A stretch of 64,000 nt of DNA from Crambe crambe (lineage: Eukaryota; Porifera; Demospongiae; Poecilosclerida; Crambeidae), in contig OZ004581.1 in assembly GCA_963924555.1 (NCBI GenBank), forward strand, positions 8,347,338-8,411,337, written 5' to 3'. How positions within the stretch are numbered: the first letter of the stretch is position 1; every line of letters begins with the position of its first letter. Of this stretch, positions 1 through 64,000 are shown piece by piece. Both the position numbers and the translations under genes were made by a program. The notes under the pieces were generated by a model. It was not told where the DNA came from and searched no databases. It saw only the letters and a program-made list of their open reading frames with translations.

Positions 1-3000
1 ATATGTCAGTGAAGGTACGACAGAGTAAGAGAATAGACAGCATGTAAGTAACAATGTAAAAAGTGAGTCAGTTCAGAATAACTTACTGGCTGAAGGAATG
101 AAATTAAGCATCAAAATACGACAGTGACGGTATAACAGAGTAAGAGAATAGACAGCATGTAAATAACCATGCAGAGAGTGAGTCAGTTCAGAATAACTTA
201 CTAACTGAAGGAATCATCAAAATATGACAGTGAAGGTACAACAGGGTAAGAGAATAGACAGCATGTAAGTAACCATGCAGAGAGTGAGTACGTTCGGAAT
301 AACTTACCAACTGAAGGAATGAAATTAAAGCATCGAATACGACAGTGAAGGTACAACAGGGTAAGAGAATAGACAGCATGTAACGATGCAGAGAGTGAGT
401 CTGTACAAAATAACTTACCAACTGAAGGAATGAAATTAAGCATCAAAATATGATAGTGAAGGTACGACAGGGTAAGAGTATAGACAGCATGTAAGTAACA
501 ATGCATAGAGTGAGTCTGTACAGAATAACTTACTTTCTGAAGGAATAAATTAAGCATCGAAATACAACAGTGAAGGTAAGACAGGGTAAGAGTATAGACA
601 GCATGTAAGTAACAATGCAGAGAGTGAGTCTGTACAGAATAACTTACTTTCTGAAGGAATGAAATCAAGCATCGAAATACGACAGTGAAGGTACGACAGG
701 GTAAGAGAATAAACAGCATGTAAGTAACAATGCAGAGAGTGAGTATGTTCAGAATAACTTACAGACTGAAAAAATGAAATTAAGCATCAAAATATAACAT
801 GTGAAGATATGACAGGGTAAGAGAATAGACAGTATGTAAGTAACAATGCAGAGAGTGAGTTGGTTCAGGATAACTTACCGGCTAAAGGAATGAAATTAAG
901 CATCAAAATATAACAGTGAAGATACGACAGGGTAAGAGAATAGACAGCATGTAAGTAACAATGCAGAGAGTGAGTCAGTTCAGGATAACTTACCGCCTAA
1001 AGGAATGAAATTAAGCATCAAAATATAACAGTGAAGATACGACAGGGTAAGAGTATAGACAGCATGTAAGTAACAATGCAGAGAGTGAGTATTTCAGAAT
1101 AACTTACTTTCTGAAGGAATAAATTAAGCATCGAAATACGACAGTGAAGGTACGACAGGGTAAGAGTATAGACAGCATGTAAGTAACAATGCAGAGAGTG
1201 AGTCTGACAGAATAACTTACTTTCTGAAGGAATAAATTAAGCATCGAAATACAACAGTGAAGGTAAGACAGGGTAAGAGTATAGACAGCATGTAAGTAAC
1301 AATGCAGAGAGTGAGTCTGTACAGAATAACTTACTTTCTGAAGGAATGAAATCAAGCATCGAAATACGACAGTGAAGGTACGACAGGGTAAGAGAATAGA
1401 CAGCATGTAAGTAACAATGCAGAGAGTGAGTACGTTCAGAATAGCTTACCGGCTGAAGGAATGAAATTAAAGCATCGAATACGACAGTTAAGTAACGACA
1501 GGGTAAGAGAATAGACAGCATGTAAGTAACCATGCAGAGGGTGAGTACGTTCAGAATAACTTACCGACTGAAGAAATGAAATTAAGCATCAAAATACGAC
1601 AGTGAAGGTATGACAGGGTAAGAGAATAGACAGCATGTAAGTAACAATGCAGAGAGTGAATCAGTTTTGAATAACTTACTTGCTGTAGGAATGAAATTAA
1701 GCATCAAAATACGACAGTGAAGGTACAACAGGGTAAGGGAATAGACAGCATGTAAGTAACAATGCAGAGAGTGAGTACGTTCAGAATAGCTTACCGGCTG
1801 AAGGAATGAAATTAAAGCATCGAATACGACAGTTAAGGTATGACAGAATAAGAGAATAGACAGCATGTAAGTAACAATGCAGAGAGTGAGTACGTTCAGA
1901 ATAGCTTACCGGCTGAAGGAATGAAATTAAAGCATCGAATACGACAGTGAAGGTACGACAGGGTAAGAGAATAGACAGCATGTAAGTAACAATGTAAAGA
2001 GTGAGTATATTCAGAATAACTTACCAACTGAAGGAATGAAATTAAGCATCGAATACGACAGTGAAGGTACGACAGGGTAAGAGAATAGACAGCATGTAAG
2101 TAACAATGTAAAGAGTGAGTATATTCAGAATAACTTACCAACTGAAGGAATGTAATTAAGCATCAAAATACGACAGTGAAGGTACAACAGCGTAAGAGAA
2201 TAGACAGCATGTAAGTAGCAATGCAGAGAGTGAGTATTTTCAGAATAACTTACTTTCTGAAGGAATAAAATTAAGCATCGAAATACGACAGTGAAGGTAC
2301 GACAGGGTAAGAGAATAGATAGCATGTAAGTAGCCATGCAGAGAGTGAGTACGTTCGGAATAACTTACCAACTGAAGGAATGGAATTAAGCATCAAAATA
2401 CGACAGTAAAGGTACAACAGGGTAAGAGAATAGACAGCATGTAAATGACAATGCAGAGAGTGAGTCAGTTCAGAATAACTTACCAGCTGAAAGAATTAAA
2501 TTAAGCATCAAAAGACGACAGTGAAGGTATGGCAGGGTAAGAGAATAGACAGCATGTAAGTAACAATGCAGAGAGTGAGTCAGTTCAGAATAACTTACAT
2601 ACTGAAGGAATGAAATTAAGCATCGAAATACGACAGTGAACGTACGACAGGGTAAGAGTATAGACAGCATGTAAGTAGCAATGCAGAGAGTGAGTATTTT
2701 CAGAATAACTTACTTTCTGAAGGAATAAAATTAAGCATCGAAATACGACAGTGAAGGTACGACAGGGTAAGAGAATAGATAGCATGTAAGTAGCCATGCA
2801 GAGAGTGAGTACGTTCGGAATAACTTACCGACTGAAGGAATGAAATTAAAGCATCGAATACGACAGTGAAGGTACAATAGGGTAAGAGAATAGACAGCAT
2901 GTAAGTAACCATGCGTATGTTCAGAATAACTTACCGACTGAAGAAATCATCAAAATACGTCAGTGAAGGTATGACAGAGTAAGAGAATAGACAGCATGTA

Positions 3001-6000
3001 AGTAACCATGCAGAGAGTGAGTACGTTCAGAATAACTTACCGACTGAAGGAATGAAATTAAAGCATCGAATACGACAGTGAAGGTACAACAGGATAAGAG
3101 AATAGATAGCATGTAAGTAACAAAGTCAGTTCAGAATAACTTACCTCCTGAAGGAATAAAATTAAGCATCAAAATACGACAGTGAAGGTACAACAGGGTA
3201 AGAGAATAAACAGCATGTAATTGACAATGCAGAGAGTGAGTCAGTTCAGAATAACTTACCCGCTGAAGGAATTAAATTAAGCATCAAAAGACGACAGTGA
3301 AGGTATGGCAGGGTAAGAGAATAGACAGCATGTAAGTAACAATGCAGAGAGTGAGTCAGTTCAGAATAACTTACTCGCTGAAGGAATGAAATTAAGCATC
3401 AAAATACGACGACAGGGTAAGAGAATAGACAGCATGTAAGTAACAATGCAGAGAGTGAGTACGTTCAGAATAACTTACCGACTGAAGGAATGAAATGAAG
3501 CATCAAAATACGACAGTAAAAGTACGGCAGGGTAAGAGAATAGACAGCATGTAAGTAACAATGCAGAGAGTGAGTATGTTCAAAATAACTTACCTTCTGA
3601 AGGAATGAAATTAAGCATCAAAATACGACAGTGAAGGTAAGACAGGGTAAGAGAATAGACAGCATGTAAGTAACAATGCAGAGAGTGAGTCAGTTCAGAA
3701 TAACTTACTCGCTGAAGGAATGAAATTAAGCATCAAAATACGACGACAGGGTAAGAGAATAGACAGCATGTAAGTAACAATGCAGAGAGTGAGTACGTTC
3801 AGAATAACTTACCTCCTGAAGGAATGAAATTAAGCATCAAAACAGGGTAAGAGAATAGACAGCATGTAAGTAACAATGCAGAGAGTGAGTACGTTCAGAA
3901 TAACTTACCTCCTGAAGGAATGAAATTAAGCATCAAAATACGATGACAGGGTAAGAGAATAGACAGCATGTAAGTAACAATGCAGAGAGTGAGTACGTTC
4001 AGAATAACTTACCTCCTGAAGGAATGAAATGAAGCATCAAAATACGACAATGAAGGTGAGACAGGGTAAGAGAATAGACAGCATGTAAGTAACAATGCAG
4101 AGAGTGAGTCAGTTTAGAATAACTTACCTCCTTAAGGAATGAAATTAAGCATCAAAATACGACAGTGAAGGTACGGCAGGGTAAGAGAATAGACAGCATG
4201 TAAGTAACAATGCAGAGAGTGAGTATGTTCAGAATAACTTACCATCTGAAGGAATGAAATTAAGCATCAAAATACGACAATGAAGGTAAGACAGGGTAAG
4301 AGAATAGACAGCATGCAAGTAACAATGCAGAGAGTGAGTCAGTTCAGAATAACTTACCTTCTGAAGGAATGAATTCAAGGATCGAAACACGACAGTGAAG
4401 GTACGAGAGGGTAAGAGAATAAACAGCATGTAAGTAACAATGCAGAGAGTGAGTACGTTCAGAATAACTTACCTCCTGAAGGAATGAAATGAAGCATCAA
4501 AATACGACAATGAAGGTAAGACAGGGTAAGAGAATAGACAGCATGTAAGTAACAATGCAGAGAGTGAGTCAGTTCAGAATAACTTACCTTCTGAAGGAAT
4601 GAATTCAAGGATCGAAACACGACAGTGAAGGTACAACAGGGTAAGAGAATAGACAGCATGTAAGTAACAATGCAGAGAGTGAGTCAGTTTAGAATAACTT
4701 ACCTCCTTAAGGAATTAAATTAAGCATCAAAAGACGACAGTGAAGGTATGGCAGGGTAAGAGAATAGACAGCATGTAAGTAACAATGCAGAGAGCGAATA
4801 CGTTCAGAATAACTTACAATCTGAAGGAATGAAATTAAGCATCAAAATACGACAGTGAAGGTACAACAGGGTAAGAGAATAGACAGCATGTAAGTAACAA
4901 TGCAGAGAGTGAGTACATTCAGAATAACTTACCAACTGAAGGAATGGAATTAAGCATCAAAATACGACAGTAAAGGTACAACAGGGTAAGAGAATAGACA
5001 GCATGTAAGTAACAATGCAGAGAGTGAGTACGTTCAGAATAACTTACCGACTGAAGGAATGAAATTAAGCATCAAAATATAACAATGAAGATACGACAGG
5101 GTAAGAAAATAGACCGCATGTAAGTAACAATGTAGAGAGTGAGTCAGTTCAGGATAACTTACCGGCTAAAGGAATGAAATTAAGTATCAAAATATAACAG
5201 TGAAGGTAAGACAGGGTAAGAGAATAGACAGCATGTAAGTAACAATGCAGAGAGTGAGTCAGTTCAGGATAACTTACCGGCTAAAGGAATGAAATTAAGC
5301 ATCAAAATATAACAGTGAAGGTAAGACAGGGTAAGAGAATAGACAGCATGTAAGTAACAATGCAGAGAGTGAGTCAGTTCAGGATAACTTACCGGCTAAA
5401 GGAATGAAATTAAGTATCAAAATATAACAGTGAAGGTAAGACAGGGTAAGAAAATAGACAGCATGTAAGTAACAATGCAGAGAGTGAGTCAGTTCAGAGT
5501 AACTTACATACTGAAGGAATGAAATTAAGCATCAAATACGACAGTAAAGGTACAACAGGGTAAGAGAATAGACAGCATGTAAGTAACAATGCAGAGAGTG
5601 AGTACATTCAGAATAACTTACCAACTGAAGGAATGGAATTAAGCATCAAAATACGACAGTAAAGGTACAACAGGGTAAGAGAATAGACAGCATGTAAATG
5701 ACAATGCAGAGAGTGAGTCAGTTCAGAATAACTTACCAGCTGAAAGAATTAAATTAAGCATCAAAAGACGACAGTGAAGGTATGGCAGGGTAAGAGAATA
5801 GACAGCATGTAAGTAACAATGCAGAGAGTGAGTATGTTCAAAATAACTTACCTTCTGAAGGAATGAAATTAAGCATCAAAATACGACAGAGAAGGTAAGA
5901 CAGGGTAAGAGAATAGACAGCATGTAAGTAACAATGCAGAGAGTGAATCAGTTCTGAATAACTTACTTGCTGTAGGAATGAAATTAAGCATTGAAATACG

Positions 6001-8740
6001 ACAGTGAAGGTACGACAGGATAAGAGAATGTAAGCAACAATGAAGAGAGTGAGTATGTTCAGAATAACTTACCAACTGAAGGAATGAAATTAAGCATCAA
6101 AATACGATAGTAAAAGTACGAGAACAGACAGCATGTAAGTAACAAAATGCAGAGTGAGTTTATTCAGAATAACTTACCCGCTGAAGGAATAAATTAAGCA
6201 TCAGTGACAGTATGACAGGGTAAGAGAATAGACAGCATGTGAGTAACAATGTAGAGTGTGAGTTGGTTCAGAATAACTTACCAGCTGAAGGCATCAAAAT
6301 ACGACAAGATAAGAGAATAGACAACATGTAAGTAACAATGCAGAGAGTGAGTTTATTCAGAATAACTTACCAGCTGAAGGAATGAAATTAAGCATCAAAA
6401 TACGACAATGAAGGTATGACAGGGTAAGAGAATAGACAGCATGTGAGTAACAATGTAGAGTGTGAGTTGGTTCAGAATAACTTACCAGCTTAAGGCATCA
6501 AAATACGACAGGGTAAGAGAATAGATAGCATGTAAGTAACAATGCAGAGAGTGAGTACGTTCAGAATAACTTACATCCTGAAGGAATAAAATTAAGCATC
6601 AAAATACAACAGTGAAGGTAAGACAGGGTAAGAGAATAGACAGCATGTAAGTAACAATGCAGAGAGTGAGTACGTTCAAAATAACTTACATCCTGAAGGA
6701 ATGAAATTAAGCATCAAAATACGACAGTGAAGGTAAGACAGGGTAAGAGAATAGACAGCATGTAAGTAACAATGCAGAGAGTGAGTACGTTCAGAATAAC
6801 TTACATCCTGAAGGAATGAAATTAAGCATCAAAATACGACAGTGAAAGTAAGACAGGGTAAGAGAATAGACAGCACGTAAGTAACAATGCAGAGAGTGAG
6901 TACATTCAGAATAACTTACCAACTGAAGGAATGAAATTAAGCATCAAAATACGACAGTGAAGGTAAGACAGGGTAAGAGAATAGACAGCATGTAAGTAAC
7001 AATGCAAAGAGTGAGTCAGTTCAGAATAACTTACTTGCTGAAGGAATGAAATTAAGCATCAAAATACGACGACAGGGTAAGAGAATAGACAGCATGTAAG
7101 TAACAATGCAGAGAGTGAGTACGTTCAGAATAACTTACCGACTGAAGGAATGAAATTAAGCATCAAAATACGACAGTGAAGGTAAGACAGGGTAAGAGAA
7201 TAGACAGCATGTAAGTAACAATGCAGAGAGTGAGTACGTTCAGAATAACTTACATCCTGAAGGAATAAAATTAAGCATCAAAATACGACGACAGGGTAAG
7301 AAAATAGACAGCATGTAAGTAACAATGCAGAGAGTGAGTACGTTCAGAATAACTTACATCCTGAAGGAATGAAATTAAGCATCAAAATACGACAGTGAAG
7401 GTAAGACAGGGTAAGAGAATAGACAGCATGTAAATAACAATGCAGAGAGTGAGTACGTTCAGAATAACTTACAAACTGAAGGAATGAAATTAAGCATCAA
7501 AATATGATGACAGGGTAAGAGAATAGACAGCATGTAAGTAACAATGCAGAGAGTGAGTACGTTCAGAATAACTTACATCCTGAAGGAATGAAATTAAGCA
7601 TCAAAATATGACAGTGAAGGTAAGACAGGGTAAGAGAATAGACAGCATGTAAGTAACAATGCAGAGAGTGAGTACGTTCAGAATAACTTACAAACTGAAG
7701 GAATGAAATTAAGCATCAAAATATGATGACAGGGTAAGAGAATAGACAGCATGTAAGTAACAATGCAGAGAGTGAGTACGTTCAGAATAACTTACATCCT
7801 GAAGGAATGAAATTAAGCATCAAAATACGACAGTGAAGGTAAGACAGGGTAAGAGAATAGACAGCATGTAAGTAACAATGCAGAGAGTGAGTACGTTCAG
7901 AATAATTTACAAACTGAAGGAATGAAATTAAGCATCAAAATACGACAGTGAAGGTACGGCAGGGTAAGAGAATAGACAGCATGTAAGTAACAATGCAGAG
8001 AGTGAGTACGTTCAGAATAACTTACCAACTGAAGGAATGAAATTAAGCATCAAAATACGACGACAGGGTAAGAGAATAGACAGCATGTAAGTAACAATGC
8101 AGAGAGTGAGTACGTTCAGAATAACTTACCGACTGAAGGAATGAAATTAAGCATCAAAATACGACAGTGAAGGTAAGACAGGGTAAGAGAATAGACAGCA
8201 TGTAAGTAACAATGCAGAGAGTGAGTACGTTCAGAATAACTTACCGACTGAAGGAATGAAATTAAGCATCAAAATACGACGGTAAAAGTACGGCAAGAGA
8301 ACAGACAGCATGTAAGTAACAAAATGCAGAGAGTGAGTTTATTCAGAATAACTTACCCGCTGAAGGAATAAATTAAGCATCAGTGACAGTATGACAGGGT
8401 AAGAGAATAGACAGCATGTGAGTAACAATGTAGAGTGTGAGTTGGTTCAGAATAACTTACCGGCTGAAGGCATCAAAATACGACAGGGTAAGAGAATAGA
8501 CAGCATGTAAGTAACAATGCAGAGAGTGAGTTTATTCAGAATAACTTACCCGCTGAAGGAATGAAATTAAGCATCAAAATACGACAATGAAGGTATGACA
8601 GGGTAAGAGAATAGACAGCATGTGAGTAACAATGTAGAGTATGAGTTGGCTCAGAATAACTTACCATCTGAAGCATCAAAAACAACAATGAAGGTACGAC
8701 AGAGTAAGAAAATAAACAGCATGTAAGTAATAGTGCTGAA
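1..8740 (-). repeat. Array A: 115-bp tandem repeat with a splice-site-like core
   Basis: About 79 head-to-tail units fill this stretch. The full unit is 115 bp; shorter variants lack roughly 10 bp around the GACAGTGAAGGTA segment. Read on the minus strand, the unit runs through a T-rich tract, TTTCATTCCTTCAG, three variable bases, then GTAAGTTATTCTGAAC. This resembles an intron end, a 3-nt exon and an intron start. Variable triplets seen (minus strand) include CCA, TTA, TTG, AAA, TCT, CCG, GCG, TCG, CAA, CTG, TAT, GAG, CGG, CGA, AAG, ATG, ATT, GAT and TTT; I found no TAA, TAG or TGA here. Another variable triplet lies after GTGAGT on the plus strand. Neighbouring units share variants in blocks, for example a four-unit block near 2,205 recurring near 2,665, so local amplification is recent. 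The array runs off the left edge of the window. Confidence 0.95.
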
Positions 8741-8975
8741 AGTTGTCAAGAATAACTCACATCCTGAAGGATCTAAATATGTCAATGAAGGTATGACAGG
8801 GTAAGATAATGAGAAGTGATAAAACAATAATTATGTTAATGAAGTATAAGTAATGACTTACCAGGAGAAGGGGTAATAAGTTCCAACATCAAATTGAGTG
8901 TGTATGGTGTGAAAGAACATGATGCCAAATATAATAATGTCAGTCTTGAATGACTCACCTCCTGAAAGAAAACAT
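8741..8975 (-). repeat. Degenerate terminal units of array A
   Basis: The array decays here into diverged units that still keep the core. At about 8,757 the minus strand reads CCTTCAG, GAT, GTGAGTTATT. At about 8,953 it reads TTTCTTTCAG, GAG, GTGAGTCATT. The unit between them, at about 8,855, keeps the donor GTAAGTC but has CTC where the acceptor AG should be. The same terminal units occur after array B near 35,545-35,850, so the two arrays share one duplicated edge. Confidence 0.7.
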
Positions 8976-11600
8976 TGATACACATACTAACTAAAGGTCG
9001 TGATCATAACATAATTCAGCACTTTCTAATCGATAAATATTCCAGTCACAATCTTGAAACCTCCTTCCTTTTTTGGTAAAGGGTTGACAAGTGAGAATTG
9101 GCCCCACCCGTACACATGGGTCACATAGGCACACTGCAGTACAGCACAAGCTGCACTTCAGGTGAGGAAGGAATGAGCTTCCAAGTCATTACCAGTGATG
9201 GGTTGCATTGGTACACTCTCTATAATCAATACTCCACAACTAAATGAGCTGTCACACCCTAGCCCCTAGTCCCTAGTCCCTAGCTACCTTTTTCATGTGA
9301 ATGCACTCACAAAATATGGTTCAGCTCTGCTAGAAGTAGCCTTCTTCTCTGCTTCTTCATTCTCTTCACCTTTTTTATCACTCATGATGTGATCCAGTAA
9401 ATATTTCTTACCTGATCCAAAAGTCTGTGGGTTCAAAGGTTATAATGATTCACTACGCATGCGCAAGATGCAAGTGGTTTCTGCACATAAATAAATAAAT
9501 CTGAAAATAATGGTCTCAAAATTAATGTCTAACCTAGATGAGTGAATGGTTTTAAGAAAGCATAAGTGAAGAGATTAGACAACATGATAAGCATTAAGTG
9601 ATACCTGCACGTGAAAAGGGGAAAGTCATTCAGCCTGCAGTGTGAAATGTCACACTGATCCGTCCTTCTTTACTTCTCTCTATTATTTTATTACACATGT
9701 GCACATGTCTGCATCCTTCTCAATATAATTATCAGTCTGTAAAGGATGCAGTCATGCATATGTATACCTGTAGCACCTGTGTGATAGAGAGAAGTTATTA
9801 AAGAGGGATGGATCAGTGTCTATTCACAACACACTAACAAAGAACCTCATTTATTTACTTATAGATTGAAGAGCCTGAGTGAATACATTCACACACTTCT
9901 TCTCTATCTGACCTCTCACCCACTTCTCTCTCATCCACCATCTAACCGCTCACCCACTTAATTCCTTCTTCTCCATTTAACCTCTCACCCACTTCTCCAT
10001 GCATCCTCCACTTTTTCTCCATCAAACCTCGCACCCACTTCTTCTCCACCTAACCTCTCACCCACTTCTTCTATCCTGTCACATACTTCCTCTCCACCTA
10101 GCCTGTCCCACAATTTTTAGCCTGCCGCCCACTTGATGGAGGAACTCTTTCAGAGTTCTGACCGTAACCAAAGATGTCAGTCAACAACATTCAATGCACT
10201 GCAATATGAGCACTTTGACAAAGCATGTGACGTATCACTCAAGTCATGTGTTGAGGACAGACTCCTGTACAATTCAGTAATGTTTCTGCAAGAAAAGGTT
10301 AGCTAACTATACAATTATTATGGGGTGGACAGGGGGGGTGCACCCCCTCTGATTTCAATTAAAAAAATAACTAGCAGAATAACACTGAGGCAATGACTTA
10401 TCCTGTTTTTGCTTCCCAAATACCAGATGCAATAATATAAGAAAACTCTAAAATTTTCCCAGAGGAGCATACCCTAGTTGGCGGGCCTTGCATGCTGTGT
10501 AGCCTACCTTCGATTCCTCAATGGAACCCAGATTTGGTACCCCCTATATTTCGTAGTGGATTTTGTACCCATGCAAAATATCATAGTTGATTTTGCACCC
10601 CTAAGTAGATTCAAAATCCACTACCACATCTTTTCAGTGGATTTGGTATGGGGGTGCATAATAATTCACTAGTGGATTAGGTAGGGGGTACGAAAAAAGG
10701 GGTGCCGAATTTCCTGTGACACCATACCTGGTCTTACACCTTAAGTTACGGTATACATGGGCATCATGCCCCCCCCCCCCCCCCCCACCCCCTCCCCTTT
10801 CAAATTCCTAGATCCACCCTTGTACATAAGCAAGAAGATTTTTCTGTTGTAAAGGTAATTTCTATGTCATATATCTAATGGTACAGTACATATGTACATG
10901 TTAACCTCCTTTTTCTCAAGGGTGGGCATAGGCGCCACCAGACTAGACATGCAATGTGGTCTTAATAATAATCATTGTTATGATAATACCATGGATATTA
11001 CAAAGCATTTAAATACACAACTCCTGATCTGAAATGAATAAGACGCTAAAGGCATCTCAGGAACAATCAGTTCACAAGGTTGTGGCCCAGCCCCCATTTC
11101 TTTCACAGCTAAATACTGTGAATGGATGAGCTGTAATCTGATGAAGGAAACGTCAAATTCATTCCCAGAATACTCTTCATTGGAGCTGGCAGTAGAGTTG
11201 ATACTCCCCTCATGATTGGAAGCGGTTTCAATGGTTCCACTCATCTCAGGAGGTACTTCGTGGGACGGCTGGTAAGTGGTGCGAGCATGAAGAGAAAATG
11301 ACATTGCAATGACAAACTCGTCTCCCTCGACATAAACAGCATCTGCTTCGGGGAGAAGTGGCATAGCGTAGTTGCCATCTTCTGTCTCAGTGGCCTCATC
11401 ACTCGCATCACCAGCTGCTTCAATAATCGCTATGGTATTGTTTCGACCAAGACCAAAAAAAGCACAAATATTTGTAAAGACGTGAAAAAAAGAAAAAAAG
11501 AAAAAAGGCTGATAAGGATAGTGATTCTCCATCTGTTCTGATTCAATGGAATTTGGAATTCAGATGATGCAGAATCGACTAATGAGGTGTAACCTCATCA
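8976..11600. repeat. Segmental duplication, copy A (paired with 35,640-40,680)
   Basis: Sequence from the array edge to about 11,600 is clearly similar to 35,850-40,640. Shared landmarks are the ATACACATACTAACTAAAGG block, a stretch repeating CCTAGTCCCTAG, a run of ACCTCTCACCCACTTCT motifs at 9,880-10,130, and the paralogous minus-strand coding sequence at 10,978-11,590. Copy A lacks two insertions present in copy B: the 2.5-kb transposon (empty site near 9,536-9,552) and an 82-bp hairpin (empty site near 10,160). A poly-C run lies near 10,770. Apart from the coding remnant I see no gene in this segment. Confidence 0.8.
10978..11590 (-). pseudogene. Broken paralogue of the novel gene at 40,091-40,789
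   Basis: The minus strand encodes a sequence closely matching the protein at 40,091-40,789, including the shared motif GLGRNNTIAIIEAAGDASDE and the stretch PQPCELIVPEMPLAS. Near 11,490-11,530 the upstream part, which reads NQNRWRITILIS, falls into a different frame at an A/T-rich run. Similarity ends near 11,590. I therefore read this as a truncated, frameshifted copy carried by the segmental duplication. The family is not one I recognise. It has an acidic, Ser/Thr-rich middle and no clear catalytic motif. The C-terminal end differs from copy B because the frames diverge after the EMPLAS motif. Confidence 0.6.
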
Positions 11601-22477: not shown

Positions 22478-22562
22478 AACTATTACAAATGGACCCATAT
22501 TACAAAAAAAACTGTAGACACAGAAAATTTAGAATACATGCATGTACTAAGTACTACTATAC

Positions 22563-22853: not shown

Positions 22854-22899
22854 CTGTAATTATAATGCCAGAAATAATTATAATTATGAAAAATAGGGA

Positions 22900-29279: not shown

Positions 29280-29515
29280 ATTCTGAAATGACTTTATAGC
29301 TCATTCCTCCTCGAGATGATGGACTGGCCCTGACATCTTCTAAATCAGCTATACCTAATGATTGAGTTTGTATGATACATGCAGCACTGGCATGGAATAA
29401 GCACTGCATGGAGAACATGCACACATGATCATATTATCTTACCAGGCATCCACTTTATCATAACAGAAGCTGAAACAATGGCTAGGAGGGCAATAACAGT
29501 TGCAATGATGTAATA
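29280..29515 (-). CDS. Transmembrane exon and short follow-on exon beside array B
   Basis: Exon 29,443-29,515 encodes a helix IIATVIALLAIVSASVMIKW ending MPG, a paralogue of the 25.6-kb transmembrane exons. Exon 29,280-29,354 is the paralogue of the 57-nt exon at 25,487, lengthened by 18 nt. The acceptor of the transmembrane exon (CTCCATGCCAG) directly abuts the last repeat of array B, and the Thr-rich 5' part present in the paralogues is missing. The exon also starts in a different phase from its paralogues (73 nt rather than a multiple of 3). It may be a truncated relic, or an exon whose acceptor was replaced by array sequence. Confidence 0.6.
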
Positions 29516-29524
29516 CTGGCATGG

Positions 29525-32500
29525 AGTAAATACGACAGTGAAAGCACGGCAAGGTAAGAGAATAGATAGCATGTAAGTAACACTGCAAAGAGTGAGCCAA
29601 TCCAGAGATAACTTACCCACTGAAGGAATGAAATTAAGCATCAAAATATGACAGTGAAGGTATGACAGGGTAAGAGAATAGACAGCATGTAAGTAACAAT
29701 GCAGAGAGTGAGTATGTTCAGAATAACTTACATGCTGAAGGAATGAAATTAAGCATCGAAGTATGACAGTGAAGGTATGATAGGGTAAGAGAATAACACC
29801 ATGTAAGTAACAATGCAGAGAGTGAGTCAGTTCAGAATAACTTACATGCTGAAGGAATGAAATTAAGCATCGAAATACGACAGTGAAGGTACGACAGGGT
29901 AAGAGAATAGACACCATGTAAGTAACAATGCAGAAAGTGAGTCAGTTCAGAATAACTTACCAACTGAAGGAATGAAATTAGGCATCGAAATACGAAGTGA
30001 AGGTACGACAGGGTAAGAAAATAACAATACAGAAAATAAGTTCAGGATAACTTACCAACAGAAGAAATAAAATAAACAATACTATGGTGAAGGCGTGACA
30101 GGACAGGATAAGAGAATAGAGTGTATATAAGTAGTGAGTCATTTCAGATTAACTTACCGACTGAAGGAATGAAATTAAGCATAAAAATATAACAGTGAAG
30201 ATAGAGAATAGGCAGCATGTAAGTAATAATGTAGAGAGTGAGTCAGTTAAGAATAACTTACCAACTGAGGAAAAAATTAAGCATCGAAATACGACAGTGA
30301 AGGTACGACAGGGTAAGAGAATAGACAGCATATAAATAACAATGAAGAGAGTGGATATGTTCAGAATAACTCACCTTCTGAACAAAAGAAATGAAGTGTC
30401 AAAATACGATAGTGAAGGTACAACAGGGTAAGAGAATAGACAGCATGTAAGTAATAATGCAGAGAGTGAGTCAGGTCAGAGTAACTTACCGACTGAAGGA
30501 ATGAAATTAAGCATCAAAATACGACAGTGAAGGTACGACAGGGTAAGAGAATAGACAGCATGTAAGTAACAATGCAGAAAGTGAGTCAGTTTTGAATAAC
30601 TTACACACTGAAGGAATGAAATTAAGCATCAAAATAATTATGACAGTGAAGGTACAACAGGGTAAGAGAATAAACAGCATGTAAGTAACAATGCAGAGAG
30701 TGAGTCAGTTCAGAATAACTTACCCACTGAAGCATCAAAATATGACAGTGAAGGTGTGACAGGGTAACAGAATAGACAGCATATAAGTAACAATGCAGAG
30801 AGTGAGTCAGTTAGTATTAACTTACTGGCTGAAGGAATGAAATTAAGCATCAAAATACGACAGTGAAGGTATAACAGGGTTAGAGAATAGACAGCATGTA
30901 GAGAGTGAGTCAGTTAAGAATAACTTACCAACTGAAGGAATGAAATTTAGCATCAAAATACGACAGTGAAGGTATGACAGGGTAAGAGAATAGACAACAT
31001 GTAAGTAACAATGAAGAGAGTGAGTCAGTTAAGAATAACTTACAAACTGAAGGAATAAAATAAAGCACCAAAATACACAAGTGAAGGTACGATAGGGTAA
31101 GAGAATAGACAGCATGTAAGTAATAATGCAGAGAGTGAGTCAGTTCAGAATAACTTACAAACTGAAGGAATGAATTTAACATCAAAATACGACAGTGAAG
31201 GTATGACAGGGTAAGAGAATAGACAGCATATAAGTAATAATGAAGAGAGTGAGTCAGTTAAGAATAACTTACCCACTGAAGGAATGAAATTTAGCATCAA
31301 GATACAACAGTGAAGGTATGACAGGGTAAGAGAATAGACAGCATGTAAGTAATAATGAAGAGAGTGAGTCAGTTAAGAATAACTTACCCACTGAAGGAAT
31401 GAAATTTAGCATCAAAATACGACAGTGAAAGTACGACAGGGTAAGAAAAAAGAATGTAAGTAACAATGCAGAAAGTGAGTCAGTTCATAATAACTTACCA
31501 GCTGAAGGAACATAAAATACGACAGTAAAAGTATGACATGGTAAGAAAATAGACAGCATTTAAGTAATAATGCAGAGAGTGAGAGAATAACTGACCCACT
31601 GAAGGTATGGAATTAAGCATCAAAATACAACAGTGAAGGTACAGAGAATAGACAGCATGTAAGTAACAATGCAGAGAGTGAGTCAGTTAACTTACCAGCT
31701 GAAGGAATAAAATAAAGCACCAAAATACAACAGTGAAGGTACGACAGGGTAAGAGAATAGACAGCTTATAAGTAACAATGCAGAGAGTGAGTCAATTCAG
31801 ATTAACTTACGAGCTAAAGGAATGAAATTAAGCATCAAAAAACGACAGTGAAGGTACGACAGGGTAAGCGAATAGACAGCATGTAAGTAAATGTAGAGAG
31901 TGAGTCAATTCGAAATAACTTACCTCCTGAAGGAAAGAAATGAAGTGTCAAAATACGACAATGAAAGTACGACAGGGTAAGAGAATAGACAGCATATAAG
32001 TAATAATGAAGAGAGTGAGTCAGTTAAGAATAACTTACCCACTGAAGGAATGAAATTTAGCATCAAGATACAACAGTGAAGGTATGACAGGGTAAGAGAA
32101 TAGACAGCATGTAAGTAATAATGAAGAGAGTGAGTCAGTTAAGAATAACTTACCCACTGAAGGAATGAAATTTAGCATCAAAATACGACAGTGAAAGTAC
32201 GACAGGGTAAGAAAAAAGAATGTAAGTAACAATGCAGAAAGTGAGTCAGTTCATAATAACTTACCAGCTGAAGGAACATAAAATACGACAGTAAAAGTAT
32301 GACATGGTAAGAAAATAGACAGCATTTAAGTAATAATGCAGAGAGTGAGAGAATAACTGACCCACTGAAGGTATGGAATTAAGCATCAAAATACAACAGT
32401 GAAGGTACAGAGAATAGACAGCATGTAAGTAACAATGCAGAGAGTGAGTCAGTTAACTTACCAGCTGAAGGAATAAAATAAAGCACCAAAATACAACAGT

Positions 32501-35500
32501 GAAGGTACGACAGGGTAAGAGAATAGACAGCTTATAAGTAACAATGCAGAGAGTGAGTCAATTCAGATTAACTTACGAGCTAAAGGAATGAAATTAAGCA
32601 TCAAAAAACGACAGTGAAGGTACGACAGGGTAAGCGAATAGACAGCATGTAAGTAAATGTAGAGAGTGAGTCAATTCGAAATAACTTACCTCCTGAAGGA
32701 AAGAAATGAAGTGTCAAAATACGACAATGAAAGTACGACAGGGTAAGAGAATAGACAGCATGTAAGTAACAATACAGAGAGTGAGTATGTTCAGAATAAC
32801 TTACCTTCTGAAGGAATGAAATTAAGCATCGAAATATGACAGTGAAGGTAAGACAGGGTAAGAGAATAAACAGCATGTAAGTAACAATGCAAAGAGTGAG
32901 TCAGTTCAGAATAACTTACCCATTGAAGGAATGTAATTTAGGACTGTGAAGGTACAACAGGGTAAGAGAACAGCATGTAAGTAATAATGCAGAAAGTGTG
33001 TCGGTTAAGAATAACTTACCTTCTGAAGGAATGAAATTAAGCATCGAAATATGACAGTGAAGGTATTACAAAGTAAGAGAATAGACAACATGTAAGTAAC
33101 AATAAAGAGAGTGAGTCAGTTCAGAATAACTTACCCACTGAAGGAATGAAATTTAACGACAGTGAAGGTATGACAGGGTAAAAGAATAGACAGCATGTAA
33201 GTAACAATGCAGAAAGTAAGTCAGTTTATAATAACTTACCATCTGAAGGAATGAAATTTAGCATCAAAATACGACAGTGAAAGTACGACATGGTAAGAAA
33301 ATAGACAGCATGTAAGTAACAATGCAGAGAGTGAGTCAATTAAGAATAACTTACCCACTGAAGGAATGAAATTTAATGACAGTGAAGATATGACAGGGTA
33401 AGAGAATAGACAGCATGTAAGTAACAATGCAGAGAGTGAGTCAGTTAAGAATAACTTACCCACTGAAGGAATGAAATTTAATGACAGTGAAGGTATGACA
33501 GGGTAAGAGAACAGACAGCATGTAAGTAATAATGCAGAGAGAGAGAGAGTCAGTTCAGAATAACTTACCCACTGAAGGAATGAAATTTAATGACAGTGAA
33601 AGTACGACAGGGTAAGAGAATAGACAGCATGTAAGTAATAATGCAGAGAGAGAGTCAGTTCAGGATAACTTACCCACTGAAGGAATGAAATTTAGCATCA
33701 AAATACGACAGTGAAGGTATGCAGGGTAAGAAAATAGACAGCATGTAAGTAACAATGCAGAGAGTGAGTCAGTTCAGAATAACTTACCCACTGAATGAAT
33801 GAAATTTAGCATCAAAATAAGACAGTGAAGGCATGACAGGGTAAAAGAATAGACAGCATGTAAGTAACAATGCAGAGAGTGAGTCAATTCAGAATAACTT
33901 ACCCACTGAAGGAATGAAATTTAACGACAGTGAAGGTATGACAGGGTAAGAGAATAGACAGCATGTAAGTAACAATGCAAAGAGTGAGTCAGTTAAGAAT
34001 AACTTACCCACTGAAGGAATGAAATTTAACAACAGTGAAAGTACAACAGGGTAAGAGAATAGACAGCATGTAAGTAATAATACAGAGAGTGAGTCAGTTA
34101 AGAATAACTTACCCACTGAAGGAATAAAATTTAGCATCAAAATATGACAGTGAAGGTATGCAGGGTAAGAAAATAGACAGCATGTAAGTAACAATGAAGA
34201 GAGCGAGTCAGTTAAGAATGACTTACCCACTGAAGAATGAAATTTAGCATCAAAATACGACAGTGAAGGTATGACAGGGTAAGAGAATAGACAGCATGTA
34301 ACAATGCAGAGAGTGAGTCAGTTCAGAATAACTTACCCACTGATTTAGCATCAAAATACGACAGTGAAGGTATGCAGGGTAAGAAAATAGACAGCATGTA
34401 AGTAACAATGAAGAGAGTGAGTCAGTTTATAATAACTTACAAACTGAAGGAATAAAATTTAGCATCAAAATACAACAGTGAAAGTACGACATGGTAAGAA
34501 AATAGACAGCATGTAAGTAACAATGTAGAAAGTAAATCAGTTCAGAATAATTAACTTACTAACTGAAGGAATAAAGCACCAAAATACAACAGTGAAGGTA
34601 TGACAGGGTAAGAGAATAAACAGCATGTAAGTAACAATGCAGAATGTGAGTCAGTTCATAATAACTTACCAGCTGAAGGAACATAAAATACGACAGTGAA
34701 AGTACGACATGATGAAAAAATAGACAGCATTTAAGTAATAATGCAGAGAGTGAGTCAGTTCAGAATAACTTACCCACTGAAGGAATGAAATTTAGCATCA
34801 AAATACAACAGTGAAGATATGACAGGGTAAGAGAATAGACAGAATGTAAGTAACAATGCAGAAAGTGAGTCAGTTCATAATAACTTACCAGCTGAAGGAA
34901 CATAAAATACGACAGTGAAAGTACGACATGGTGAGAAAATAGACAGCATTTAAGTAATAATGCAGAGAGTGAATCAGTTCAGATTAACTTACCCACTGAA
35001 GGAATGGAATTAAGCATCAAAATACAACGGTGAAGGTACAAAAGGGTAAGAGAATAGACAGCATGTAAGTAACAATGCAGAGTCGGTCAGTTCAGAGTAA
35101 CTTACCAACTGAAGTAATAAAATTAAGCATCAAAATACGACAGTGAAGGTAGGACAGAGTAAGAGATTGCATATATGTAACAATGCAGAGAATGAGTATG
35201 TTCAAAATAACTTACTCACTAAAAGAATGAAATTAAATATCACATACGACAGTGAAGGTACGTCATGTAAGAGAATAGATAGCATATAAGTAACAATGCA
35301 AAATAACTTACCTCTTGAAGGAAAGAAATTAAACATCAAAATACGACAGTGAAGGTACGACAGGGTAAGAGAATAGACAGCATGTAAGTAACAATGCAGA
35401 CAGTGAGTCAGTTCAGAATAACTTACCTGCAGAAGGAATGAAATTAAGATCAAAATATGACAGTGAAGGTACGACAGGGTAAGAAAATAGACGGCATGTA

Positions 35501-35640
35501 TGTAACATTGCAGAGCTAGAGAGAGTGAGTATGTTCAGAATAACTTACCTCTCTAAGGAAATTAACTAAGCATCAAAATATGACAGTGAAAGTACAGCAA
35601 GGTAAGGGAATAGACAGTATGTAAGTAATAATGCAGAAAG
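29525..35640 (-). repeat. Array B: 115-bp tandem repeat family
   Basis: About 50 units in the same orientation as array A, more diverged and often shortened. The minus-strand core, CTTCAG then three bases then GTAAGTTA, is kept in most units. The triplet is mostly TGG in the centre of the array, with TTG, CAT, TTT, CTG, GAG, AAG, CTC, TGT, ATG and others. One unit near 35,210 has TGA. Several units, mainly toward the high-coordinate edge (near 32,915, 35,308 and 35,425), have lost the acceptor AG. A seven-unit block is present twice in a row (31,205-31,970 and 31,971-32,736), essentially identical by eye. Confidence 0.93.
31205..32736 (-). repeat. 766-bp higher-order repeat, two copies
   Basis: Two consecutive 766-bp copies, each of about seven 115-bp-type units with a matching set of deletions and variants (for example the CATAAAATACGACAGTAAAA junction at about 31,511 and 32,277). 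Copies start at 31,205 and 31,971. This marks recent unequal exchange inside array B, or a collapse or duplication during assembly. Confidence 0.85.
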
Positions 35641-36548
35641 TGAGTCAGTTCAGAAGGAGATCTAAATATGTCAATGAAGGTATGACAGGGTAAGATAATG
35701 AGAAGGGATAAAACAATATCTTAATAAAATATAAGTAATGACTTACCAGGAGAAAGGGTCCAACATCAAATTGAGTGTATAATATTATGGTATGAAAGAA
35801 CATGATGCCAAATATAATAATGTCAGTCTTGAATGACTCACCTCCTGAAAGAAAACATTGATACACATACTAACTAAAGGTCGTGATCATAACATAATTC
35901 AACACTTTCTAATCAATAGACATTCCAGACACAATCCTTATTTCCTTCCTTGTTTTGGTAAAGGGTTGGCAAGTGAGAATAGGTTCCACATGCATATGAC
36001 ACACTGCAGTACAGCGCAAGCTTCACTTCATGTGAGGAAGGAATGAGCTTCCATGTCATTACCAGTGGTGGGTTGCATTGGTACACACTCTATACTCCAC
36101 AACTAAATGAGCTGGTGTCACACCCTAGCCCCTAGTCCCTAGCTACCTTTTTCATGTGAATGCACTCACAAAAATTGTTTCTTCATTCTCTTCATCTTTT
36201 TTATCACTCATAGAAGTAGCCTTCTTCTCTATTTCTTCATTCTCTTCATCTTTTTTATCACTCCTAATATAAATTACCTGCGCCATCCAAAGGTATGGAA
36301 TCTTGCAAAAAATTAATCGTCAGCAGGCGTCATCCGTAAACCGACTACTACGCATGCGCACAACTTAAAAATTTGAAATTGCACTCAGATTTGGAAAGAA
36401 CTTTTGAAGAGCTAGCTAGTGACTGTTCTAGTATAGTTCTAACCTATTAGTATGCCATTCATCTTCTCTGGTGAGATTTTCGAGGCTCAAAGTTGAGCAT
36501 GCGCGAGAATACACACTCAGCAAGTTAATGTCTAACCTACAGATGAGT

Positions 36549-59484: not shown

Positions 59485-62380
59485 TCAAGGTGTCATCTTT
59501 AACTTGACTTGCTTCGACTGACTTCCTTGTTGGTTCACTCTATAGACATACACAATGGAGGTTGTCTCATAAAAATGACAGTCTTTAGTCATAGCTACTT
59601 ACATCAGGAGCACTGCTTGTTCCTAGTGGTTGAGTTTTGCTGGTCAAAGTTGTGGACTGAGTAGGTGTTGGACTGCAACCAGGTTGAAGTTGAGGTACAC
59701 TTTGCAACTGGTTCAATGCTGAGATGAAAACATCATAATAATAATATTAGCTAATAGCTACCATCAGTGACGGGTCAGGGAATAGACCTATATTATTTTA
59801 CCTTTCTCCAATTCTTTCTTTAACTGATCAATCTCCTTGTTCTTTTCGAGTATTTCTCTGTCCTTTAAACTCAGTTGCTGCTCATAGTGTTCCTTGTGAG
59901 TCTGTTCATACTTGTGGTAAAAAAATCTGAAAAAAAAAGTGATATTAGCCTATTATGTCAATACAGTCATCACAAGTACTTTTTCTGCATGTTTTGCATG
60001 CCTATACTGTTCAGATGCTGGAGGAGGTGATGTCTGGATACTATCTCCATCTCTTCCTGCCAGAGGTCTAGCAGAATCTGGGCATTATTGTTGATGTATT
60101 CCATCTCCAAGGCTTCTGCCAGTTCCTTCACCTTCTCACACTTCTGAACCTCCATGGCAATAACCTCAAGTTCAGAAGGAGAGACAATAGCAATCTCCTA
60201 AAAAAAAAAAAACTGTAAAAATTACACCCACTTATCTTATTTACTATATAACTACTCACCTGTCGAATACTCAACCAAAAGTTTTGATCAATACTTAATT
60301 TTGTCCGAATACTTTTTTCACAAACTAGTGCAGGATTAGAAATGGTGGTGTCTGCTGGAAGGATAACGAAATGATCTCTCTGTGGACAACCTTCACACTT
60401 TAATGCAAAATTGATGCCGATCCCTGGCAGCCATTTCTTGATTTCTATGAAAGACTGTTGAATGATTTCAAGTATGGCATGACATGAACTTATGAAGGTG
60501 GGACATTTATATGTCCTTGAATCGATACGTTGTACATCAATTCTCACACTAAACTTTTCTTCTGAAATAAAAAGTCGGTCCAGTTGCTGTCCAGGAGATC
60601 CAAACAAGAATTGGATTTGATTTCGATATATTTTCTTATCGACTGGTAGATGACATTTAGGGTGCTTTGACATGACTGCTGCCAGTTGAGTGAAGAAGCC
60701 TGGAGGTAAGTAGTTGGTGCTGAAAACAAGATGCAATGGAATTGCAAACTTGATGGCAGTGCTAGTCGAGTGTGGATCAGCAACGTTCGGTAAATGAGGT
60801 AGCATGGATGGAACAAAATATTTCAAACCTGGACTCTTGTATTTTTCAATACTGATTTTAGCAATGATCAAGAAATGCTCCAATAGATCCACAATCTGTT
60901 GAGGTTGCAACTCTTTTTGAGCTCTCAATACTTTTTGGTATAATGATTCTACCAATACTCCATCCTCACGCAACAACTTCCAGAGACGGCTGTTTCTATA
61001 TTCTTCTCGGCCTTCCAGTGCCAACAAACGGGCTATTTGCTTGATGAGCCATTGAGGGTCAGCAATGACACAAGACTTCAAGCTGGGGATGTCTGAGTAG
61101 TGAAAGAACACGGCAAGATCGTGATAGAATGTAAGGATGCTAGTAAGAGTATCTTCAGGGATAAAACATGCTCTGCATAGTTCCTTCACTTCCTCTAAAG
61201 AAACTACTGGCTTCTTTTGAGATCTGGCATATCTCTGGAACACTTTCCTGAACAGCAACCAAGTGATTGGAGTACGAATAGCTAAATCTTCTGTTGCAAA
61301 GTTACTCACAGTTTCACGAATGAGCTTAAAAGTGGGATCTTCTTTCATCTCTCCTTTACCAGCTGTCGTGTTATCGACTATTGATCCATCCAAAACAATA
61401 TCAGAAAAAACTTTATCTGCAATTTCTGAAGAAAGCTTTTCAAGAATCTCATGTTTCCTTTCCTTAACAGAAATATCATCACCATGTGAACCAACTGGCA
61501 GAATGCAAGGATATTTGGGGACTTCTTCATCTTCTACAATTTCTTTATCGATAATGAGCCTCTTATTCAAGAGAGTAGCATGAATGGTAGATATCCACTG
61601 CACCATCAGGTCCAGTGTGGATATATCTTCTAGATGCTCAGTGGCTCTTCCTTTCAAATACGTGAGTGACCGACACTGATCGTGGAGATCACATCTGGCA
61701 TCGAACATTAAGAGAAACAATGTCCTCGCTGTTAGGAATGCAGGAAGAATTTTAAGAAAGACTGGCTGGCCTCCACAATCCCACACATGCAGATAAACTT
61801 CCTCTTCAATAAATGGGTCATCAGTGGTTATAACAGAAAGAATCTCTTTCAAAATCCCCTCAATCAATGGGTGGTCAAATTTGGGGGCAGTTTTACTAGG
61901 TTGATTTTTGTCACTGCTCACATCACTTCCTGTGGCAGAAATGGAATCTTTGTGGTCAAGAATAGTTTGTATCAACTGAGCAAGTCCTTTGATTTCATCA
62001 GCATCAGTTATTTTAGTCCAGAACTTTCCTTCCTGGCTGCAGGCCCAGTAACTCTCAGTGGGGCGGAGGGAGAACGTGTCAGCAACCTGGGTGCTGTAGG
62101 CTTCACAGGGAAGGGGCAGATTCATCAAGCCATTGAGTAGACTGCTCTTGCCCACACCTCCAGGACCAACGATCATCACACGAGCATATGCAATCTTCGT
62201 TTCACCATGCCCAAGGGCATTCAAGTAATCCACTGAAAATCAAATGTACAAAATAATTAATATCTATCAAAGTAAATATATTACCTTCAGTCCTTGAGGC
62301 TCGAGTCTCAAAATAGAATTCAACATGGAAACGAAGTTGATTCACAAGTGAATTATGCACAAAAGACATACACTCACCAC
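59485..62380 (-). CDS. Roco protein: ROC-COR, Death-like, coiled coil (multi-exon model)
   Basis: Minus-strand exons: 62,285-62,380; 60,260-62,232 (ROC-COR); 59,980-60,197 (Death-like); 59,802-59,926 (coiled coil); 59,603-59,718; 59,485-59,539. The frame joins from the first exon (RFHVEFYFETRASRTE) into VDYLNALGHGETK of the ROC exon, and from ROC-COR to the next exon in phase 0. Roco proteins are GTPases in which COR mediates dimerisation. ROC-COR with a Death domain recalls DAPK1, but no kinase or ankyrin repeats are seen. Array C sits directly upstream of the first exon. The two last linker exons are duplicated at 57,556-57,771, linking this model to the Death gene downstream. The true 5' end (LRR, ankyrin or other recognition domain) is outside or beyond the array. 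Confidence 0.75.
59802..59926 (-). CDS. Coiled-coil exon
   Basis: A 125-nt exon encodes a charged heptad-like helix, QLSLKDREILEKNKEIDQLK KELEK, after FFYHKYEQTHKEHYEQ. It is likely to extend dimerisation of the Roco protein. Borders: acceptor TTTTTTTCAG and donor AAAG then GTAAAATA. Confidence 0.65.
59980..60197 (-). CDS. Death-like helical exon after COR
   Basis: The exon starts in phase 0 after a T-run acceptor (TTTTTTTAG) and reads EIAIVSPSELEVIAMEVQKC, then KVKELAEALEMEYI and AQILLDLWQEEMEI, HHLLQHLNSIGMQN. LAEAL near the start, then LLDLWQ and LLQHL, fit helices 2 to 5 of a Death-type fold. It sits exactly where Death domains sit in Roco-Death proteins. The call is by pattern only. Confidence 0.6.
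60260..62232 (-). CDS. ROC-COR exon (about 657 codons)
   Basis: A single long exon, acceptor TTTGATTTTCAG and donor CGACAG then GTGAGT. Its ROC GTPase motifs are intact: P-loop VGPGGVGKSSL near residue 22, DCGGQ near 152 (the switch II DxxGQ), and SHGDD near 249 in the place of NKxD. Long inserts lie between motifs (SATGSDVSSDKNQPSKT). COR follows: ITWLLFRKVFQRYARSQKKP, LCRACFIPEDTLTSILTFYH and the typical LKSCVIADPQWLIKQIARLL. A C-terminal region (FAIPLHLVFSTNYLPPGFFT) follows, with a GIGINFALKCEGCP stretch like the post-COR beta domain of other invertebrate Roco-Death proteins. With P-loop and switch motifs kept, nucleotide binding is likely. Confidence 0.9.
62285..62380 (-). CDS. First visible Roco exon, with a repeat-derived acceptor
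   Basis: A 96-nt exon with acceptor CATATTTTCAG and donor CTGAAG then GTAATA. It encodes GECMSFVHNSLVNQLRFHVE FYFETRASRTE and splices in frame to the ROC exon. An in-frame ATG (MSFVHNS) could be a start codon, so it may be a 5' exon. The acceptor side, on the plus strand ACTCACCACCTGAAAATATG then AACAGTGAAAGTA, aligns with the 115-bp unit (ACTTACNNNCTGAAGGAATG ... GACAGTGAAGGTA). The exon's first bases, GTG then GTGAGTG, look like the triplet and donor of a repeat unit. Confidence 0.65.
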
Positions 62381-62479: not shown

Positions 62480-64000
62480 CATGTAAGTAACAATGCAGAG
62501 AGTGAGTCAGTTCAGAATAACTTACTCGCTGAAGGAATGAAATTAAGCATCAAAATACGACAGTGAAGGTACGGCAGGGTAAGAGAATAGACAGCATGTA
62601 AGTAACAATGCAGAGAGTGAGTACATTCAGAAAAACTTACAGACTGAAGGAATGAAATTAAGCATCAAAATACGACAGTGAAGGTACGACAGGGTAAGAG
62701 AATAGACAGCATATAAGTAACAATGAAGAGAGTGAGTATGTTCAGAATAACTTACTTTCTGAAGGAATAAAATTAAGCATCGAAATACGACGGTGAAGGT
62801 ACGACAGGGTAAGAGAATAAACAGCATGTAAGTAACAATGCAGAGAGTGAGTCAGTTCTGAATAACTTACTATCTGAAGGAATGAAATTAAGCAAATATG
62901 ACAGTGAAGGTACGACAGGGTAAGAGAATAGACAGCATGTAAGTAATAATGCAGAGAGTGAGTACGTTCAGAATAACTTACCCACTGAAGGAATGAAATT
63001 AAGCATCAAAATACGACAGTGAAGGTAAGACAGGGTAAGAGAATAGACAGCATGTAAGTAACAATGAAGAGAGTGAGTACGTTCAGAATAACTTACCTCC
63101 TGAAGTAATGAAATTAAACATCGAAACACAACAGTGAAGGTACGACAGGGTAAGAGAATAGACACCATGTAAGTAATAATGCAGAGAGTGAGTCAGTTCA
63201 GAATAACTTACCGACTGAAGGAATGAAATTAAGCATCAAAATATGATGGTGAAGGTACGACAGGGTAAGAGAATAGACAGCATGTAAGTAACAATGCAGA
63301 GAGTGAGTCAGTTCAGAATAACATACCGGCTTAAAGAATGAAGCATCAAAGGATGACAGTGAAGGTACGACAGGATAAGAGAATAAACAGCATGTAAGTA
63401 ACAATGCAGAGAGTGAGTCAGTTCTGAATAACTTACTATCTGAAGGAATGAAATTAAGCAAATATGACAGTGAAGGTAAGACAGGGTAAGAGAATAGACA
63501 GCATGTAAGTAACAATGAAGAGAGTGAGTACATTCAGAATAACTTACCTCCTGAAGTAATGAAATTTAACATCGAAACACGACAGTGAAGGTACGACAGG
63601 GTAAGAGAATAAACAGCATGTAAGTAACAATGCAGAGAGTGAGTCAGTTCTGAATAACTTACTATCTGAAGGAATGAAATTAAGCAAATATGACAGTGAA
63701 GGTACGACAGGGTAAGAGAATAGACAGCATGTAAGTAACAATGCAGAGAATGAGTCAGTTCAGAATAACTTACATACTAAAGGAATGAAATTAAGCATCA
63801 AATACGACAGTGAAGGTACGACAGGGTAATAGTATAGACAGCATGTAAGTAACAATGCAGAGAGTGAGTCAGTTCAGAATAACTTACTTGCTGAAGGAAT
63901 GAAATTAAGCATCAAAATACGACAGTGAAGGTACGGCAGGGTAAGAGAATAGACAGCATGTAAGTAACAATGCAGAGAGTGAGTACGTTTTGAATAACTT
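62480..64000 (-). repeat. Array C: 115-bp tandem repeat family, running off the right edge
   Basis: Thirteen units in the same orientation as arrays A and B, starting about 100 bp 5' (on the minus strand) of the first Roco exon. Minus-strand triplets between the acceptor and donor motifs are CGA, TCT, AAA, ATA, TGG, GAG, TCG, CCG, ATA, GAG, ATA, TAT and CAA: no stop triplets, nine different codons in the first nine positions except one repeat. All units keep AG before the triplet, and all but one (GTATGT near 63,320) keep GTAAGT after it. Confidence 0.95.

Follow-up and report, generated by a model that had tools for sequence, protein, structure and literature searches.

Satellite arrays of Crambe crambe as candidate runs of one-codon exons in ROC-COR GTPase genes

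Can a satellite repeat be read as protein-coding sequence when nearly every unit looks like an exon of a single codon? The question is raised by a stretch of 64,000 nucleotides from Crambe crambe (contig OZ004581.1, here C1, positions 8347338-8411337; assembly of 143 Mb in 119 contigs), referred to below as the window. Its first 8975 bases hold a tandem repeat of 115 bp whose units carry, on the minus strand, a 3' splice site, three bases and a donor. A reading made from the sequence alone had reported about 79 such units with about 19 different triplets and proposed a library of selectable codons. The phase-0 flanks of the arrays, the absence of stops in 709 triplets, the fixed triplet of a mirror motif and the fit of a further copy (L033) strongly supported, at the level of sequence, that the units are one-codon micro-exons. 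The arrays quite likely constitute the N-terminal coding body of ROC-COR GTPase genes, or of diverged copies of these, with one codon per exon, and most codons are probably used in genomic order rather than held as a library of optional codons.

Units were detected as YAG plus a pyrimidine-rich stretch and a donor-like sequence with the triplet left free, which gave 77 units and 19 distinct triplets on the minus strand at positions 1-8975, in line with both earlier counts. The strict motif CAG-NNN-GTAAGTTA occurred 66 times on this strand, 0 times on the plus strand and on average 0.0 times in 200 mononucleotide shuffles. Similar arrays lie at 29617-35844 and from 62526 past the end of the window, and the first array continues below base 1. 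The contiguous 281 kb that were read, window included, contained nine arrays (A1-A6 and B1-B3, the last three in the window) with 799 detected one-codon units. The intron is mostly 112 nt long and comprises GTAAGT, a GCTTAAT resembling a branch point, a pyrimidine tract and CAG. Acceptor and donor were spaced by 3 nt in 728 of the 739 pairs lying within 30 nt of each other; inspection of the other 11 by eye showed AG-NNN-GT preserved in 10 and the exon lost in one, and 55 more donors lacking an anchor acceptor within 30 nt fell outside this count. Gaps of 181-227 nt within arrays, with some larger ones in A3, B2 and A1, indicated that some diverged units were missed or had lost their exon.

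Column statistics come from 274 kb, in which 696 units were loosely matched to a 37-mer, up to 10 mismatches being allowed. Because the splice sites lie within this 37-mer, conservation of AG and GT was slightly favoured; the triplet was free to vary. The entropies of triplet positions 1, 2 and 3 were 1.97, 1.86 and 1.38 bits, respectively, whereas the adjoining GT (G in 696 and T in 693 units) and AG (688 and 689 units) were nearly fixed. Mean pairwise difference was 0.659 per triplet site vs. 0.115 per intron site. This per-column check had been proposed together with the claim that the triplet is the most variable spot between almost fixed flanks. The triplet is indeed the most variable run, and AG and GT are near-fixed, yet other variable spots exist in the unit: intron sites +17, +18 and +69 reached 1.68, 1.37 and 1.66 bits, the rest of the intron being conserved. 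The base before GT was G in 434, A in 157, T in 97 and C in 8 of the 696 units, a donor-like bias that fits the consensus for the last exon base. By accident, every unit also has a mirror motif CAG-NNN-GTAAGT on the plus strand, whose triplet was CAT in 59 of 61 cases in the first array; variability of a triplet is thus not a mere consequence of motif and repeat.

Sites +17/+18 were mostly TG, GT, AT or AG and shared 0.963 bits of information with the preceding codon, against 0.322 bits when shuffled; a code linking them to the codon was rejected, as shared ancestry of the units explains the signal equally well. Read-through frames inside the arrays were likewise discarded: owing to the unit length, the frame changes from unit to unit, and one of the frames hits TAA within GTAAG (by eye). 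The consensus intron folded no better than shuffles (z +1.19), which gave no indication of RNA structure, and an Rfam search of the window returned 0 matches at gathering score.

Eight copies could be read through and had a common layout of exon 1, 29-191 detected units, a 22-nt exon and a ROC-COR GTPase exon. In the window, this layout is represented by the following parts of genes B1 and B3:

9311..9385, minus strand: exon 1 of gene B1, 25 codons MSDKKGEENEEAEKKATSSRAEPYF, donor GTGAGT, phase 0
8959..8961, minus strand: first one-codon exon of B1, GAG (Glu), between TTTCTTTCAG and GTGAGTCATTC
87..8961, minus strand: B1 array, 77 one-codon exons detected in the window, 0 stop triplets
C1:8356298 down to 8341642, minus strand: whole B1 array, 128 exons detected, 51 of them beyond base 1
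62526..63890, minus strand: window part of the B3 array, 12 of 29 detected one-codon exons (QYIEISEWIKSR)
62378..62380, minus strand: last one-codon exon of B3, GTG (Val), between TATTTTCAG and GTGAGTG
62285..62306, minus strand: 22-nt exon of B3, TRASRTE plus G
60131..62232, minus strand: open frame of the ROC-COR exon of B3, from TGGATTACTTGAATGCC; the coordinates are those of the frame
60189-62233, minus strand: Pfam matches in B3, Roc (4.2e-09) and COR-A (4.1e-16)

Exon 1 opens with ATG and is 25 codons long; GTGAGT adjoins its last codon (GTAAGT in A1, where the script missed the start and the 25 codons were counted by eye), and it thus ends in phase 0. By eye, it looks hydrophilic. The first array residue was Glu in all 12 copies read, and the arrays started with Glu-Asp in eight of nine copies (seven ROC genes and the later-fetched L033 and L034), the exception being A1 with Glu-Arg. 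After the array, an extra one-codon exon was seen by eye in A2, A6 and B3 (GTG) and in A4 (ATG), and not in A5. The 22-nt exon, IRASRTE plus G with small variations, was seen in B3 and six other copies and in one copy fetched later, and is followed by a ROC exon beginning TGGATTA. The ROC frame implies that the 22-nt exon begins on a codon boundary, i.e., at a phase-0 acceptor. With phase 0 at both independent flanks, each array triplet should be one whole codon; exon 1 joined to the 22-nt exon stays in frame even with zero units. In B3, ROC was followed by COR, as in Roco proteins, with Pfam scores of 37.1 bits for Roc (cut-off 27) and 59.6 bits for COR-A (cut-off 35.3), and its ROC exon has close relatives in other assemblies. 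The ROC frames were open for 672-711 residues after six of the seven genes, the seventh being cut by the edge of the fetched sequence.

In the frame predicted by these flanks, the seven ROC genes within the 281-kb region contained 0 stops in 709 triplets, compared to 91 expected from position-wise base frequencies (TAA 24.6, TAG 61.7, TGA 4.8). The two other frames of the joined triplets contained 18 and 34 stops in 702 triplets each. Because the arrays grow by block duplication, contexts were collapsed: the 378 distinct three-codon contexts had 0 stops, while 5000 permutations gave a mean of 44.5 and a minimum of 27. When only TAA and TGA were counted, permutations of the collapsed contexts averaged 15.1 and never fell below 5. 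Genome-wide, exact cores with TAA or TAG occurred 0 times, with TGA once and with CAG 14 times (for scale, the core one base longer has 2101 units). The stop triplets found were three, namely a TGA in A3, a TGA in its duplicate B2 and the genome-wide TGA in copy L030; in all three copies, no ROC acceptor (≤3 mismatches) was detected before the next exon 1. Across the seven neighbouring ROC genes, AG and GT were intact in nearly all units. There is selection against stops in the array triplets, and their lack in essentially every unit of the ROC genes fits better with use of most units than with occasional choice.

Three further places (L033, L034 and L035) were fetched once the model was fixed. 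L033 showed a phase-0 exon 1, 62 codons EDMREQRRWEDRERRFLLLEEKRLEEQLRELGLLSEEEELSEDERRFLLYRSSLSPFSSYRQ starting Glu-Asp with 0 stops, a 22-nt exon and a ROC exon; as the two other frames contained only 0 and 1 stops, the frame contrast in L033 alone was weak. L034 lies on the opposite strand and has no ROC match; its fetched part contained 82 codons and 0 stops, with 5 and 2 stops in the other frames, and its peptide looked coiled-coil-like by eye. L035 covers the beginning of the copy in which the L030 stop lies; its exon 1 has 20 codons and ends in phase 0, and its 35 array codons include a Trp/Cys/Gln-rich run and no stop in any frame.

The exact unit core was found 1910 times on one strand and 191 times on the other (2101 genome-wide; reversed control pattern 0), and its places were all on C1 among the matches listed (at least 100 of the 2101). 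Extrapolated from the share of exact units in the contiguous region (404 of 799), the genome would hold roughly 4150 units. Allowing ≤3 mismatches, the exon 1 end plus donor was located at 35 places, none of them outside C1. Of these, 33 share one orientation and fall within 8.16-9.37 Mb; the remaining 2, at 6.64 and 6.71 Mb, have the opposite orientation. The ROC-exon acceptor occurred at 23 places with ≤3 mismatches, all in the first orientation, and was present for 21 of the 33 first-orientation copies when each acceptor was assigned to the next exon 1 upstream. Copy B2, between whose array and the next exon 1 no ROC acceptor was detected, has the following parts in the window, and its second unit has lost its exon (by eye):

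36170..36211, minus strand: shortened exon 1 of copy B2, MSDKKDEENEETIF, phase-0 donor
29617..35844, minus strand: B2 array, 48 one-codon exons detected, Trp-rich
35216-35218, minus strand: TGA triplet in the B2 array, a stop
29443..29515, minus strand: transmembrane-like exon after the B2 array, YYIIATVIALLAIVSASVMIKWMP plus G

Copies without a detected ROC exon (window 29617-35844; C1:8229165-8234628; L030 and L035) were rich in Trp, Cys, Gln and Pro (TGG, TGT, CAA/CAG), and these Trp/Cys-rich copies could be in decay or could contribute to a different product. L034 looks normal despite the lack of a ROC match.

Comparison between copies pointed to change by whole units. In the A2 vs. B1 alignment, 22 of 125 aligned units differed, many of them through misalignment; the alignment is imperfect in duplicated blocks and yields no usable substitution counts. 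Approximate as it is, it suggests that most differences between these copies are whole units or blocks gained or lost. In A3 vs. B2, all 42 aligned codons were identical, with one gain of six units. The joined triplets contain long repeated blocks such as SKEISELPKEELSELLK.

If the arrays are coding, transcription would start at exon 1 and the array introns would be removed singly. U1 and U2AF could not both fit at the two ends of a 3-nt exon at the same time; with introns of about 112 nt, exon definition is implausible, and removal by intron definition appears the plausible route. After each step, the codon just added would form the three exon bases (-3 to -1) ahead of the next donor, so that the process would act as a ratchet, gaining one residue per splicing step. 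The default product would carry 29-191 residues N-terminal to the GTPase, or somewhat more, since diverged units may have been missed. Unequal exchange between near-identical introns could add, drop or duplicate whole codons without a frameshift. Beyond this, it is conceivable, if doubtful, that the arrays act as a generator of single-residue diversity, in which skipping and unequal recombination would reshape the N-terminal region of the ROC family with the frame never broken; such a system would yield a germline and perhaps a per-transcript repertoire.

Several observations weigh against a coding role of the arrays. CAG was also missing from the ROC genes (0 of 709 vs. 38.9 expected), and the depletion of TAG may partly stem from a competing YAG acceptor; on the 36 distinct triplet types alone, the stop test was not significant (mean 1.98, P(0)=0.086). 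The ROC acceptor (≤3 mismatches) was undetected in 12 of the 33 copies and in both opposite-orientation copies, and some copies without it carry stops or Trp/Cys-rich triplets. When proteins were searched with the composite B1 N-terminal region, none of 419 candidates reached E≤0.1. In the array parts of four joined peptides, all Pfam matches were sub-threshold, the best being Piezo_TM1-24 (E 0.002) in the lysine/glutamate-rich A1, and a PDB search with the A6 peptide found nothing below 0.07; beyond sub-threshold matches, the Pfam and PDB searches of joined peptides returned only P-loop matches. Joined peptides of five of the nine arrays gave one chance-level match against the genome (best E 3.5). 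Hydrophobic periodicity was absent from eight peptides with repeats masked (A2 was left out as a near-duplicate of B1): no lag exceeded z +0.94, and lags 2 and 11 were low (-1.90 and -2.04), giving no support for a fixed codon order once repeats are masked. Moreover, more than 100 consecutive 3-nt exons would require very faithful splicing.

These points have to be weighed together with three other explanations. The library of the sequence-only reading, in which each transcript takes up a few one-codon exons, chosen by regulation or randomly, so that the N-terminal region varies by molecule, would profit from near-identical donors and acceptors in all units, which make skipping easy and always in frame, and from the fact that exon 1 and the 22-nt exon are in frame with no unit at all. 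Rarely used units should, however, tolerate stops, of which the 709 units have none; repeated blocks such as the one above suggest joint use of neighbours, although block duplication alone also yields repeats. As a default mode the library is unsupported, stops being missing from essentially every unit of the ROC genes, and we regard it as unlikely. Use of most codons in genomic order accommodates the same stop record more readily, and some optional inclusion may come on top of it.

Alternatively, the array could be a non-coding satellite within one large intron from exon 1 to the 22-nt exon, with splice-like motifs as a by-product and the triplet as a mutable site. The frame survives if the entire array is skipped, variability extends to other sites of the intron, and no read-through or retrocopy of joined codons was found in the genome and protein searches, all of which would be compatible with this. 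Such a satellite would not, however, be expected to avoid stops in exactly the frame predicted by the flanks with 18 and 34 in the others, to have a mirror motif with its triplet fixed as CAT, or to have AG and GT as its most conserved sites next to its most variable run, and this explanation is very improbable. It is harder still to credit that the arrays are the decayed remains of a formerly coding family, now mostly spliced around, with stop avoidance inherited. The copies of both orientations without a detected ROC acceptor, and those with stops and lost units, could be taken in this sense, but the seven neighbouring ROC genes are stop-free with AG and GT intact in nearly all units, and the ROC frames remain open in six of them.

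Among the closest known systems, introners are near-identical introns present in many copies scattered over many unrelated genes; the array introns resemble them in being near-identical and in many copies, and appear to differ in forming tandem runs on one contig, among the matches listed. Micro-exon genes of Schistosoma mansoni encode secreted products and have 10-20 very short exons each, separated by introns of 0.1-5 kb; exon sizes are 6-81 bp (the abstract gives 3-81), 15 bp being the usual length (PMC10526429). The likeness lies in runs of very short, mostly frame-keeping exons that build much of a variable protein, and the anatomy and stop avoidance of the arrays would fit consecutive frame-keeping micro-exons forming much of the coding sequence. 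The pattern of 10-20 exons, mostly 15 bp, with long introns was not found: all array exons are 3 nt, 29-191 were detected per gene (62 in L033), and the introns form one tandem satellite, mostly 112 nt. Exons of one codon or less are spliced in nature, with 3-nt and 1-nt examples in mouse Ncam, fly TnT and plant APC11 and VPS55; these are isolated exons in ordinary genes (PMC8042270, PMC8831610), in contrast to the unbroken tandem runs described here. Zero-nucleotide recursive splicing removes intron segments stepwise at acceptor-donor pairs, which abut as AG directly followed by GU and add nothing to the mRNA (PMC13149111). In the arrays, AG is not directly followed by GT; the 3 nt measured between nearly all pairs would be kept. 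Because one defining feature each of schistosome micro-exon genes and of zero-nucleotide sites was looked for and not found, the layout may be set apart as a new kind. The open-licence full texts searched held no description of consecutive one-codon exons, in agreement with the earlier reading, which knew of no such system, other literature being outside the search.

If correct, this gene layout would stretch ideas of splicing: regions of up to about 190 residues would be encoded with a single codon in each exon, and nature would thereby put exon-size limits, intron definition and the fidelity of splicing to an extreme test. It would also mean that a 'satellite' can be coding sequence that gene finders miss, and would offer a frame-safe path to hypervariable proteins.

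Other features of the window include receptor-like open frames on the minus strand at 24931-28823 and 54647-56854, with transmembrane-like stretches nearby. Minus-strand matches comprised an I-set Ig domain at 28401-28823, a sub-threshold ZU5 at 27800-28420 and sub-threshold Death domains at 24931-25272 and 54647-55009, with a still weaker one at 56402-56854. A DnaJ domain open frame lies at 22486-22899 on the minus strand (Pfam E 3.6e-21), and an open frame with an ISXO2-like transposase domain at 18673-19326 on the plus strand (Pfam E 3e-17). The minus-strand open frames 10981-11559, which had no Pfam match, and 40094-40789 have a near-identical stretch in common (GLGRNNTIAIIEAAGDASDEATET...). 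A second tandem repeat occupies 44750-45603, with periods of about 43-56 bp and a core resembling GGGAGTCATTC...GAGGATGAAATGA.

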